64,000 bases of DNA, taken from the NCBI GenBank assembly GCA_022708105.1, contig JAKIZI010000004.1, positions 1 to 64,000 on the forward strand. Reading direction: 5' to 3'. This stretch comes from Bacteroidota bacterium. GTDB taxonomy: Bacteria; Bacteroidota; Bacteroidia; Bacteroidales; WCHB1-69. How positions within the stretch are numbered: the first letter of the stretch is position 1; each line of letters opens with the position of its first letter. The position numbers and the translations under genes were made by a program. The notes beneath the pieces were generated by a model that saw nothing but the letters and a program-made list of their open reading frames with translations, made no database searches and was not told where the DNA came from. Positions 1 to 10,129 of this stretch are shown here, one piece after another.

Positions 1-723
1 GAGATCCGGAAAGTATCTGTAATCGCCGGTAATTATGATTTGTTCTGATGATTTTTCAGGCCATTCAGATATTGCCGAAGACATCGCGTCAAATACCTTT
101 TTAGAAGTGGCAAGAGCCCTATTTTTTAATTCTGCCACATCTTCGCTGATAGTCATTTGAACTCCTTGAAGCAAATCCGTTCCGCTAATTTTTACAGAGT
201 TATCTTCGCTGAAGCCCATCTCATTACCGCCACGCAACATATCTGCTAACATTGTGAGGGATTGGTCATCAACATTCATTGCGTATTTACTTCTAAAATA
301 AAAGGGGAATCCAATCCACGGGTACATACAATGGTTTTCCAATCGGCAACACAATTCCATTGGAATAGAGTCGGTGGAACTGTCCCCCGCCGTATAAGAG
401 AAACGGCAAATATCAAGATGAAATCTGCCGAAGTGCACCAAAAGAGCAGAACCGCCCTCCGGAGGTATCAAACCTCCGCCTATAGCTGCAACTATCGGCT
501 CTCTGACAAAAAAGCAATTCAGAATATTCCTCTTTTTTGCATAATTTTGAAGCATATCCTCTTCTTCCTTGGTTAAATCTCCGGAAAACGAAACCGCCAT
601 TAGAATATTCTCCGGATTGGAGAAAGTCAACTCGCTGTCGGACAGAATGGCTACATTAGGTTTTGTGTCGCTAATAGGTCCCGTAAATGTAAAAGCAATT
701 TTAAAATTTGAAATTTGTCTCAT
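1..723 (-). CDS. MreB-related (actin-fold) protein, partial, nucleotide-binding motifs degenerate
   Basis: The reading frame runs off the left edge, so 241 N-terminal residues are visible. Residues 38-85 follow the MreB pattern of a beta strand, then a helix, then EPIVAAIGGGL (MreB has EPMAAAIGAGL). Residues about 178-241 match the MreB stretch GRDLxxGxPxTI through the final LTGG loop. The phosphate-2 motif (DIGGGTTE in MreB) reads VHFGRFHLDI here, and the last loop reads TGDYRYF instead of TGGGAL. The protein also starts roughly where MreB residue 60 would be, so the phosphate-1 loop is absent. I infer an actin-fold pseudo-ATPase. The start at 723 is supported by a -7 box 21 bp upstream. Homology was judged by eye; the family call is probable and the function unknown. 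Confidence 0.6.
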   Translation of the reverse strand, partial: MRQISNFKIAFTFTGPISDTKPNVAILSDSELTFSNPENILMAVSFSGDLTKEEEDMLQNYAKKRNILNCFFVREPIVAAIGGGLIPPEGGSALLVHFGRFHLDICRFSYTAGDSSTDSIPMELCCRLENHCMYPWIGFPFYFRSKYAMNVDDQSLTMLADMLRGGNEMGFSEDNSVKISGTDLLQGVQMTISEDVAELKNRALATSKKVFDAMSSAISEWPEKSSEQIIITGDYRYFPDL

Positions 724-744
724 GGGTATGTGTTTTGATTGCGA

Positions 745-752
745 CAAAATTA
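745..752 (-). promoter_or_regulatory. -7 box for the MreB-like gene
   Basis: TAATTTTG on the minus strand matches the Bacteroidota TAnnTTTG element and lies 21 bp before the ATG at 723. It decides the start: the frame is open back to about 866 but has no ATG there. Confidence 0.6.
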
Positions 753-755
753 TAG

Positions 756-1070
756 CACGATTATGAAAAAATAAAGCATAGTGTTTTAAAGATTGATATT
801 TTGAAAAATCAAATAAAAGTGCTTGATAATCAAGTACGCGATTTTTTTTGAAAAAGGAAGCCCCCTAATCAAAAAGAGTTAGTTCTGCAACTAAGCAACG
901 TGCGTGGGCAGGGCAAAAAGGGGAGGCGGGTGGCTTTCTTTTTTCCTTGATTTTTTGGTACTTTTTATGCGTATTGCTTGATCGCAAAGAAATAACTCCG
1001 AACAAAGCTTTGTAAAGAAACCATTGATTTATTGAGGATATACAAAGTCTTTGGAGAATAAGAAATTGGC
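756..1070. other. Intergenic region with a GC-rich patch, no gene seen
   Basis: About 315 bp without a convincing gene. Positions 855-945 are unusually G/C-rich for this genome. They are followed by a T-rich run (about 942-970) that looks like intergenic repeat or decayed sequence. No tRNA, riboswitch or long open frame was recognised. Confidence 0.5.
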
Positions 1071-1073
1071 AAT

Positions 1074-1108
1074 AAAAAAAGCTGCCTAATATTTAGGCAG
1101 CTTTTTTT
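1074..1108 (-). terminator. Rho-independent terminator after rpsT, bidirectional in shape
   Basis: A perfect 9-bp stem (1081-1089 with 1093-1101, GCTGCCTAA and its complement) with a 3-nt loop is flanked by seven A and seven T. It lies 19 bp beyond the rpsT stop on the minus strand. Confidence 0.9.
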
Positions 1109-1127
1109 ATTGAGAATAGGAAAAAAA

Positions 1128-1379
1128 TTATAAAGAATTGATTTTTTTCATTAATCCTGATTTCAAATTGGCAGCTTTATTCTTGTGAATAATTCCTTTT
1201 TTGGCTAATTTATCAATAAGAGAAACCACACCGGATAATTTTCCTGAAGCTTCTTCTTTATTAGACATTAATCTAATCTCTTTTAAAGAATTACGCATTG
1301 TTTTTGCATAATATCTGTTTTCCAATCTCTTTCTGTTGTTCGCTCTGATTCGTTTTAAAGCCGATTTGTGATTTGCCAT
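1128..1379 (-). CDS. rpsT: 30S ribosomal protein S20
   Basis: This 83-residue, strongly basic protein starts MANHKSALKRIRANNRKR, the typical S20 N-terminus. It continues as the long helical hairpin of the family and contains the GIIHKNKAA segment. S20 binds 16S rRNA early in 30S assembly. Length is normal for the family. The gene stands alone, with a -7 box about 47 bp upstream and a strong terminator just downstream. Confidence 0.97.
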   Translation of the reverse strand: MANHKSALKRIRANNRKRLENRYYAKTMRNSLKEIRLMSNKEEASGKLSGVVSLIDKLAKKGIIHKNKAANLKSGLMKKINSL

Positions 1380-1426
1380 CTTTTTTCTATTTGATAATTT
1401 ATTTTTTTTATTTCTTAATTGGGGTG

Positions 1427-1434
1427 CAAAAATA
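1427..1434 (-). promoter_or_regulatory. -7 box for rpsT
   Basis: TATTTTTG on the minus strand, 47 bp before the rpsT ATG. Confidence 0.55.
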
Positions 1435-1483
1435 GTAATTTTATTTGATATAGCAAATAGGTTTACTTCTTTTTTTTATTTTT

Positions 1484-3067
1484 TTATTGAATTTCAATAT
1501 GATATTGAAAATTTCCTGTCAGTTTTAATCTTAATTTATAGGAATCATAGATTTTAGTATATCCGGGAGTATTGGTATTAAAGGTAGCGGTAATTCTCAT
1601 CTTCCCATTTTCTTTAAGTATTTTACTCTCTGCATTATTCAAAGTAATGGGGAGAATGCTGCGGGTCGGAGTTGTAACTCCTTCTTCAATCAAAGTCCCG
1701 GGTAAAATAGTGTTATTACCTGAAAAGAGTGGAAGTTTTGACTCTCCTTGAGAATCGATAATCTCCACCTGAATCTGAGCTGCAAAAGGATATCCGTTGT
1801 CGGCGATAAGTTGTAACCGAAGTTGATCAACAGGATCCAATTCACTGCCGAATTTGTAAGCAACATCGTCACGAAGGGTTAGATTGGAAGCAGAAAAGGA
1901 AAATGGAATTTCAATATGTACTTTTGTCTTAAAATCATATCCCCGATAGATGAAATCATTCCCTGCCGAAATATTTCCCATCGGATTAAGATGGAGCATC
2001 GCTTGATATTCTGTTTGGTCAGGGAAGAAAGTCAGCCATTGCAGAATATTGGATTCGGTGACGTCAATCGTAGTTGTAGTAGGGGAGACAGGAACTCCGG
2101 GATTATTGTTTTCTGAAGCACGGGTGATATTGATGGGGCGATTCAAAAGAGAACTTTGGAATGGGAGTTCTTCAAGTGTGTTGCTTTTTATGGCTTTAAG
2201 ACTTAATAATCTGAATTGTAAATCTGCTCCAATCCCATTTTGAATCGTAAATGACGCTTTGGCACTTTCCATTTCGAGGGTACCGTCTTGAATCATATCA
2301 AAGAAATGGATTGGTGTCGTTTCAGGTCCATAATTGATATGTTGTTGTCCAAAGAACCCTCCTGCATATCCAAGATCAATATCTTCAAAATTAATTTTAA
2401 TAAGCAATTCGGAACCGATAGTTCTTGCGGAGTCAGGGGCATTGGGAGAAACTCTTACTGCAAGAATATTGCGGTAACTATTTACGGTATTTCCGTTTGG
2501 TCCCCGCAAGTCAAGTTGGTAACCGGATATATCAATATGAGCCGTATAGCTGTTTTCGCTACCATTACCCTTAGGAATCGTTATTTTTTTTGATAAAGAA
2601 ACCCCGTTAATTTTGGCGGCAGGAATCTGATAATGCAATTCGATGGGTTGGTTAAATGGATTTATAACCTCAAAGGCAATAGAACCTCCATGTAATTCAA
2701 TTTTCGTTAGTTCAAGCGGAGAAAGTTGCATTTTTTGAACTTCATCTTTATGAAAAAATAGGGTGTTAGGAGCCAACGATGCTGATGAGGAGACCGGTAA
2801 ATACAACTGAAATATTGAATCAGGTAAAGAGGTGAATGAGTTGGTGGAGAGAGAAAAAAGGTCTTTGTCAATAACTAAGGACAATAAGTTGTTCTCATCA
2901 ACGGAAACCATACTGTCCGGAAGAATGTGCGCAACGGATAACTCTGTATTAAATAATGGTGCATTGAGGTCGGTATCCCATTCAATCGGCGACTTTTTGC
3001 ATCCTATCAGTAAAATTATGATGAGGAAAAGACTAATTTGGTGTTTCACGCTCCGTGCTTTTATCAT
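1484..3067 (-). CDS. Large lipoprotein, paralogue of the one at 18873
   Basis: I chose the Met at 3067, which gives MIKARSVKHQ, then a hydrophobic stretch and the lipobox LIGC followed by KKSP. Upstream in-frame Mets would bury the signal peptide. The result is a 527-residue predicted lipoprotein with no cytoplasmic features. After the Cys comes a short motif W-D-x-D-L-N-A-P-L-F, then a long beta-rich region. The first 35 bases overlap the end of the rhomboid gene, so the two are probably co-transcribed. It aligns by eye with the lipoprotein at 18873 in several blocks (W..PL.N near the N-terminus; FE...; FF....G....A......NG.GA). I do not recognise a function; a surface or outer-membrane-associated role is an inference. 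Confidence 0.8.
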   Translation of the reverse strand: MIKARSVKHQISLFLIIILLIGCKKSPIEWDTDLNAPLFNTELSVAHILPDSMVSVDENNLLSLVIDKDLFSLSTNSFTSLPDSIFQLYLPVSSSASLAPNTLFFHKDEVQKMQLSPLELTKIELHGGSIAFEVINPFNQPIELHYQIPAAKINGVSLSKKITIPKGNGSENSYTAHIDISGYQLDLRGPNGNTVNSYRNILAVRVSPNAPDSARTIGSELLIKINFEDIDLGYAGGFFGQQHINYGPETTPIHFFDMIQDGTLEMESAKASFTIQNGIGADLQFRLLSLKAIKSNTLEELPFQSSLLNRPINITRASENNNPGVPVSPTTTTIDVTESNILQWLTFFPDQTEYQAMLHLNPMGNISAGNDFIYRGYDFKTKVHIEIPFSFSASNLTLRDDVAYKFGSELDPVDQLRLQLIADNGYPFAAQIQVEIIDSQGESKLPLFSGNNTILPGTLIEEGVTTPTRSILPITLNNAESKILKENGKMRITATFNTNTPGYTKIYDSYKLRLKLTGNFQYHIEIQ

Positions 3068-9140: not shown

Positions 9141-9524
9141 CTAACTCTCTTTTTGTTCGCGTTTTGTAGTATATATTTCAAAAATTGAAAAAAGAAGATA
9201 TAGAATCAGAAAAGAAATCGTAAATAAAATTCGATCTTCTTTAAACAATACTAAATAAACCAAAACAAAGATAATATAGGAAAGAAATTTGATGGTGGTT
9301 GCTAAAATATAGTTGGAAATAAACTTTTTATCTTTTTTATACAAACCTCTCAAAAGGAGATAATGAGTAAAAAGTATAATGATAAAAAAGAATAAAATTA
9401 AAAAAGGAAGGGCAGGGGAGGCGTAAGCTGGGAAAAAACGTTGCAAAGCAAAAGAAAGTCCGGCAATACAAATCGAAAAAATCAGAAGCCGGAATAAGTA
9501 TTTCTTAAAAGCATATTTTAACAT
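9141..9524 (-). CDS. AtpI-like small membrane protein
   Basis: This 127-residue protein is almost entirely hydrophobic, with four predicted transmembrane helices separated by a basic cytoplasmic loop (LYKKDKKF). It sits 9 bp after atpZ. In Bacteroidota a protein of this size and topology usually lies between AtpZ and the ATP synthase a-subunit, so I read it as the ATP synthase subunit I-type assembly factor. Sequence similarity to AtpI is not strong enough to see by eye. The usual downstream atpB is missing. Confidence 0.6.
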   Translation of the reverse strand: MLKYAFKKYLFRLLIFSICIAGLSFALQRFFPAYASPALPFLILFFFIIILFTHYLLLRGLYKKDKKFISNYILATTIKFLSYIIFVLVYLVLFKEDRILFTISFLILYLLFSIFEIYTTKREQKES

Positions 9525-9533
9525 AGCGGTTGT

Positions 9534-9752
9534 TTATTTTTTTTTGGAAGTAAAATCTCTGAGAATTAAGTACATAGAAATCGCAATTGCGCCTAAGGAA
9601 CAGAGGATAACAAAAAGAGGGCCGGTTAATAGCCATTGGTCCAATTTTATGCCACCATAAGTGCCGCCGGCAATGATAATTCCCATTTGAAAGGCCATTC
9701 CGGAATAACGGACATAACCCTTCATAGGGGAATCACCGGAATTCTTTTTCAT
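9534..9752 (-). CDS. atpZ: AtpZ/AtpI family protein
   Basis: This 72-residue protein has two transmembrane helices. It contains YSGMAFQMGIIIAGGTYGG followed by K-L-D, the conserved glycine-rich helix and xLD motif of AtpZ. It ends in a second helix and a basic tail. Family members help F1Fo ATP synthase assembly or Mg2+ supply to it. The start overlaps the bactofilin stop in an ATGA arrangement, so translation is coupled. Confidence 0.82.
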   Translation of the reverse strand: MKKNSGDSPMKGYVRYSGMAFQMGIIIAGGTYGGIKLDQWLLTGPLFVILCSLGAIAISMYLILRDFTSKKK

Positions 9753-10129
9753 TGTTTATCTTCTTGTTTTTCTACAGGAATTTCAACCTTTGAATTTTGC
9801 ATTTTACAATTTCCCACAAAATTGGCACCGGGTTCAATCGAAAGTTTCCCGGCTATTATATTGCCCATTAGAACTGCATTTGAGCGTAAACTTAATAAAT
9901 CTCCAACATTGATGTTGGCTTTCACTTTACCTTCAATTTCGATGTTTTTACATACAATTTCTCCTTCAACGATTCCAGTTTCTCCTACAATGACTTTTGC
10001 ATTGGATTGAATATTCCCTTTCATGTTTCCATCTATCCGACAATCTCCTGAAGTTACAATATTTCCTATTAAATTGGAGCCTTCAGCAATGACATTAACT
10101 CCATTTTCTTGTTCGTATATTTTTGGCAT
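9749..10129 (-). CDS. Bactofilin (polymer-forming cytoskeletal protein)
   Basis: This 126-residue protein has the bactofilin core: a right-handed beta helix of short glycine-punctuated repeats (SGDCRIDGNMKGNIQSNAKV, GETGIVEGEIVC, EIEGKVKANI) from about residue 15 to 115. The N-terminal leader is short and polar and the C-terminal tail is charged. Bactofilins self-polymerise without nucleotide and scaffold envelope processes. Linkage to atpZ is the arrangement commonly found in Bacteroidota upstream of ATP synthase genes. Confidence 0.92.
   Translation of the reverse strand: MPKIYEQENGVNVIAEGSNLIGNIVTSGDCRIDGNMKGNIQSNAKVIVGETGIVEGEIVCKNIEIEGKVKANINVGDLLSLRSNAVLMGNIIAGKLSIEPGANFVGNCKMQNSKVEIPVEKQEDKQ

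Follow-up and report, generated by a model that had tools for sequence, protein, structure and literature searches.

The first 723 nucleotides of a contig from a genome read as Bacteroidales by its gene content and search matches encode, on the minus strand, a protein (P0001) in which an earlier note had recognised MreB-like blocks and degenerate nucleotide-binding motifs. This locus raises the question of whether P0001 is indeed derived from MreB and, if so, whether it might be an actin-fold protein acting without ATP, for instance as a partner of true MreB. We addressed this question in the window, that is, the whole 64,000-nucleotide stretch analysed (G000:C219:1-64000), and through searches of related genomes.

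The gene at the contig start and its surroundings

P0001 is one truncated gene from a single incomplete draft genome (G000; 2.0 Mb, 75.8% complete, with an estimated contamination of 3.4%). Base 1 of the window is the start of the contig, and a search of its own genome for the missing C-terminus with the first 21 bases of the contig matched only these bases themselves. The reading frame starts with an ATG at 723, and an in-frame TTG is found at 747. Codon usage was trained on 37 long ORFs of the window and resulted in an in-frame score for P0001 of 0.078 bits per codon, above the maximum observed for out-of-frame controls taken from those 37 genes (-0.045) and above the values for its five other frames (-0.30 to -0.10). 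Beside the training genes this score was the fourth lowest, with only 3 of 37 genes scoring lower in a leave-one-out comparison. Altogether, the coding signal of P0001 is clear, though weakish, and we regard P0001 as very probably a real gene.

The gene had also been credited with a promoter box of its own. P0001 does have a separate upstream region, and the sequence TAATTTTG in it fits TAnnTTTG, which we take to be the Bacteroidales promoter box, but the window contains 56 copies of this motif on one strand and 49 on the other, and the probability of a chance occurrence within 60 bases, estimated by arithmetic from these counts, is about 5%, which makes for a weak assignment.

The product of the upstream neighbour rpsT was matched in 54 of 59 family genomes. 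The rpsT side of the window is syntenic with G001, a genome of the same genus from which P0001 is absent; downstream of the conserved rpsT block, G001 carries an Rhs-like remnant at the place where the window has P0001. The next gene conserved in G001 (of bifunctional nuclease type, named by eye) sits within a different contig of G000. For this reason the site was considered a rearrangement point, and the possibility that P0001 was a simple insertion, or the replacement of a conserved G001 gene, was rejected. Another contig of G000 (C208; L183:11161-16957) carries several Rhs-like genes in which a YFYHPDHIGSTSW segment is repeated. The remnant adjoining rpsT in G001 is related to these genes, and it is bracketed by G+C-rich stretches that by eye appear to be inverted copies (L037:7540-7760 and 9370-9570). 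A bactofilin-like gene (126 aa, cytoskeletal, named by eye) was observed at 9749-10129 on the minus strand of the window, 9 kb away from P0001; its proximity is probably a coincidence.

Table 1. Position of P0001, its sequence blocks and upstream elements in the window, and of other MreB derivatives in the family
Feature	Position	Strand	Remarks
P0001 CDS, MreB-derived	1..723	-	241 residues visible, cut by contig start
Short N-terminal part, residues 1-37	613..723	-	Replaces ~100 MreB residues; alignments
EPIVAAIG, residues 75-82	478..501	-	Best-kept block (MreB EPMAAAIG); Glu at CcMreB E140; alignments
HFGRFHLDI, residues 97-105	409..435	-	At phosphate-2 loop (MreB DIGGGTxEI); alignments
GTDLLQG, residues 181-187	163..183	-	MreB GRDLLxG hairpin of subdomain IIB; alignments; most confident part of the model
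TGDYRY, residues 232-237	13..30	-	At last glycine loop (MreB AGGGSL region); alignments
TAATTTTG	745..752	-	Possible TAnnTTTG promoter box; ~5% by chance
rpsT (ribosomal protein S20)	1128..1379	-	Upstream neighbour of P0001; syntenic with same-genus genome G001
G026 derivative	L145:1724-2959	-	412 aa; long extra N-terminus; HCGGGVTE at phosphate-2; short contig
G011 derivative	L146:3187-3654	-	156 aa; lacks N-terminus and middle; phosphate-2 reads HIGSDTCE
G107 second MreB	L147:2902-3894	-	46% identity; DIGGGT kept; motifs intact except EP to RP

Homology of P0001 to MreB

Curated models recognised P0001 with scores below their thresholds. The Pfam model MreB_Mbl (PF06723) matched with an E value of 4e-4 and 19.8 bits, missing its cut-off of 27; the NCBIfam model MreBH gave an E value of 4.7e-6, far under its cut-off; and the scores obtained with NCBIfam models (25.9, 19.7, and 17.5 bits) missed the cut-offs of 515, 293, and 365.75, respectively. 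A custom profile was then built from 82 MreBs, 30 of them from the family and 52 from a search of genome contigs. This profile scored P0001 at 32.0 bits and placed residues 39-233 colinearly on profile positions 102-287, so that the MreB blocks appear in their proper order, as had been claimed. The best score among 5,000 composition shuffles of P0001 was 5.2 bits, and that of the remaining window ORFs of at least 100 aa was 4.7 bits. Given the size of this difference, the homology of P0001 to MreB is real, and the profile search bears out the relationship that the earlier note had proposed.

The rival view, that the resemblance is due to chance or low complexity, draws on the failure to reach any curated cut-off and on the values obtained with single PDB sequences, with E values of 0.14 or worse. 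We consider it highly improbable, since it is contradicted by the shuffle and window-ORF controls, by the colinearity of the alignment over ~195 residues (at ~22% identity), and by an alignment-based tblastn search of genome contigs that reached at least 52 loci with E values of 4e-8 to 1e-4 (relative to the candidates), all 52 listed loci holding an MreB ORF. A match of P0001 to the Pfam family LPD34 (E value of 0.011) was taken as due to chance.

We then examined the distribution of P0001 in samples of relatives, family, order, and phylum genomes, which overlap with each other. Among 99 relatives, three had matches at E values up to 1e-3, corresponding to the G000 gene itself and two true MreBs. 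Searches for an orthologue returned only the gene itself in 104 genomes of the family (E value up to 1e-5) and in 393 genomes of the order. In 395 genomes of the phylum, six matches were obtained at E values up to 1e-4: the gene itself and five others (21-23% identity, open frames of 341-395 aa), which were taken to be MreBs. The best match in G001 was MreB itself, with an E value of 0.3. Patterns derived from P0001 had no match in the genome contigs of the GTDB collection, and no close relative was found in the plasmid, phage, and viral-contig collections. G000 has a separate true MreB, whose last 68 residues open contig C220; the gene next to it is the one that adjoins mreB in G001. The absence of an orthologue from all these searches, which leaves the altered residues of P0001 without a record of conservation, counts against the explanation proposed below. 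P0001 was not filed as MreB because it lacks several features that define that protein. Confined to one of the genomes examined, it is an unusual, far-diverged paralogue of MreB and not a new system.

Parts lost and parts retained

The alignments revealed that the N-terminal part of P0001 comprises 36-38 residues, in comparison with ~100 in MreB, which agrees with the shortened first domain described previously. As judged from the sequence, the phosphate-1 loop (DLGTANT), subdomain IB, and the N-terminal amphipathic helix are all absent. No remnant of an MreB N-terminus was detected upstream, as a tblastn search of window positions 1-1500 with two MreB N-termini (115 aa each) gave nothing at E values up to 100. 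The phosphate-2 motif DIGGGTxE reads HFGRFHLD, and in the last glycine loop AGGGS reads TGDYR, in an alignment that stops near the contig edge. The missing phosphate-1 loop and the two altered loops were thus found as the earlier note had reported them, with one correction, namely that two residues of the catalytic set are retained: E75 (CcMreB E140) and D104 (CcMreB E169). The third is changed, T167 being replaced by H102, and so P0001 departs at its T from the motif E...T-x-[D/E] described for MreB in PMC9597168 (for the role of CcMreB E140 and for T167, see PMC4051119). In comparison with the MreB/Mbl/MreBH group (PF06723, TIGR00904), P0001 is colinear and shares the EPxxAAIG and GxDLLxG blocks, whereas its identity and its scores are low, and the phosphate loops, subdomain IB, and the N-terminal helix are altered or missing.

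To see how these changes are distributed, we considered the 67 aligned columns conserved in at least 90% of MreBs, 20 of which are kept in P0001. Losses affected 4 of 6 nucleotide-site columns, chosen after the alignment had been inspected, and 43 of 61 columns elsewhere (Fisher p = 1.0). This lack of enrichment indicates that the sequence by itself shows no specific switch to ATP-free work.

An even spread of losses is also what would be observed in a decaying, functionless duplicate of mreB that has not yet built up stop codons. The presence of P0001 in a single genome and its absence from G001 are in line with such decay, as are its low codon score and the existence in G011 of a shortened mreB copy (156 aa), flanked by core genes and apparently decaying. 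On the other hand, a neutral sequence of 241 codons diverged to ~22% identity would be expected to contain ~12 stop codons (an estimate assuming ~5% stop codons), and none is present; in addition, the codon usage of P0001 is gene-like solely in the correct frame. The persistence of 241 stop-free codons at such divergence argues against free decay, which we consider rather unlikely, though still a serious contender.

The actin fold proposed for P0001 was examined by structure prediction. Two AlphaFold runs with MreB alignments resulted in mean pLDDT values of 54.0 and 54.8. The model was confident at residues ~140-160 and 176-205, corresponding to subdomain IIB and the helix that follows, and of low confidence at residues 1-40 and 75-133. 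The top 22 Foldseek matches of this model were all MreBs (E values of 1e-7 to 5e-6), with TM values of 0.25-0.30 and rmsd of ~13-15 Å; in the model, pieces agree with MreB and their packing does not. VIA-align gave Z values up to 8.0 for MreBs; below 8, a match obtained with this tool may reflect no more than a shared arrangement. It also aligned residues ~4-85 on actin domain I with Z near 5 and an rmsd of 3.4-4.2 Å over 65-81 residues. The best PDB matches are therefore MreBs, but the pLDDT of 54.8 and whole-chain rmsd values above 10 Å speak against a firm assignment. Because of the warning attached to Z values under 8, and because the alignment supplied to AlphaFold for P0001 consisted itself of MreBs, the structure supports the actin fold weakly, and this fold is probable for P0001 as modelled.

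Other MreB derivatives in the family and possible roles of P0001

A survey of 103 family genomes with true MreB as query revealed, among the matches listed, three other MreB derivatives each present in a single genome (G026, G011, and G107; Table 1). As in P0001, a His replaces the phosphate-2 Asp in the G026 and G011 copies. In contrast to P0001, the three copies are far closer to MreB, with Pfam E values of 6e-37, 3e-37, and 2e-79 for G026, G011, and G107, respectively, and that of G107 retains DIGGGT. With the G026 copy as query, the matches other than the query itself were true MreB-like copies of no more than 36% identity, which indicates that the derivatives are separate orphan copies. 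A second mreB copy in G042, at 63% identity, has intact motifs and belongs to a bin with 8% contamination. The bins of G026 and G107 have estimated contaminations of 5-7% (5% for G026), and the owner of the G026, G107, and G042 copies is uncertain. Two further mreB-like pieces (G053:C124 and G027:C134) were excluded from the derivatives as contig-edge pieces. The G011 copy sits between apparent topoisomerase I and methionyl-tRNA synthetase genes, and that of G107 adjoins, by eye, genes of the AAA-type ATPase, WYL-like regulator, and nucleotidyltransferase-like types, which possibly make up a mobile or defence-related region.

With site columns again selected after inspection of the alignment, losses at the nucleotide site were enriched in P0006, from G011 (4 of 9 columns vs 5 of 43 elsewhere, Fisher p 0.037), and not in P0005 (Fisher p 0.73). 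A strict DNA pattern for the change of the phosphate-2 Asp to His, Asn, or Tyr, which misses the G026 copy because its upstream block differs, matched 21 of 393 order genomes; by eye P0001 was the only MreB-like case among these, and the other 20 look like chance matches. The sharing of His at phosphate-2 by three copies is suggestive, and three sequences are too few for a rule.

We propose that P0001 arose by divergence, within this Bacteroidales lineage, from a duplicate of mreB or from an MreB paralogue of great age. In this process the membrane helix at the N-terminus would have disappeared, as would subdomain IB (and with it the phosphate-1 loop), the Mg/phosphate-2 loop, and the glycine loop on the adenine side, and the protein would have kept the core of the fold around EPxxAAIG plus subdomains IIA and IIB. 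Such a protein would probably no longer bind ATP tightly or polymerise alone, and could survive nucleotide-free. The loss of the parts needed for ATP-dependent assembly on the membrane, along with subdomain IIB being the best kept, leads us to think a nucleotide-free P0001 the most likely, and its ATP binding has quite probably been lost. The IIB face of MreB takes part in protofilament contacts, and its conservation in P0001 suggests that P0001 could bind true MreB and cap or modulate its filaments. A role as partner of true MreB, the leading one that we put forward, is doubtful, and the explanation taken as a whole, a nucleotide-free MreB paralogue that perhaps teams up with true MreB or caps it, is tentative. 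Its most elaborate form, in which P0001 would be an IB-less, nucleotide-free cap or regulator of MreB and one of several that arose independently in the family with the same change of Asp to His, is distinctly improbable.

A protein with an actin fold and a job unrelated to MreB filaments, either as an adaptor, like the actin-fold scaffolds that work without nucleotide, or as a decoy for MreB-targeting agents, would also account for the loss of the nucleotide site and membrane anchor, and would be in line with the position of the orphan G107 copy beside genes that, named by eye, look mobile or defence-related. P0001 lacks an operon partner, however, with rpsT upstream and its other side off the contig, and searches for defence, phage, and plasmid matches returned nothing; we regard such a job as unlikely.

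With regard to known systems, the cytoplasmic domain of GspL/EpsL is a nucleotide-free scaffold with an actin fold. It resembles what we propose for P0001 in having such a fold without ATP; the Pfam matches listed for P0001 include none to the GspL/EpsL families. SpeMreB3 of Spiroplasma, according to PMC9597168, is an MreB paralogue with reduced ATPase activity that has lost E and T of the catalytic motif, exists beside active MreBs, and polymerises on nucleotide binding. P0001 is likewise a paralogue of MreB whose catalytic residues are altered; SpeMreB3, however, retains nucleotide binding, whereas P0001 keeps E and D and has lost T. P0001 goes further than SpeMreB3, since it is devoid of the phosphate loops and IB. 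In the titles and opening lines of abstracts surveyed in the open literature, there was no nucleotide-free MreB paralogue from Bacteroidota.

As it stands, P0001 matters little beyond annotation. Some eukaryotic actin-related proteins have lost ATPase activity and regulate actin; if P0001 were expressed and bound MreB, it would represent a bacterial parallel of these ATPase-less proteins. Furthermore, the recurrence of damaged MreB copies within one family may provide a natural series on which parts of MreB are dispensable.
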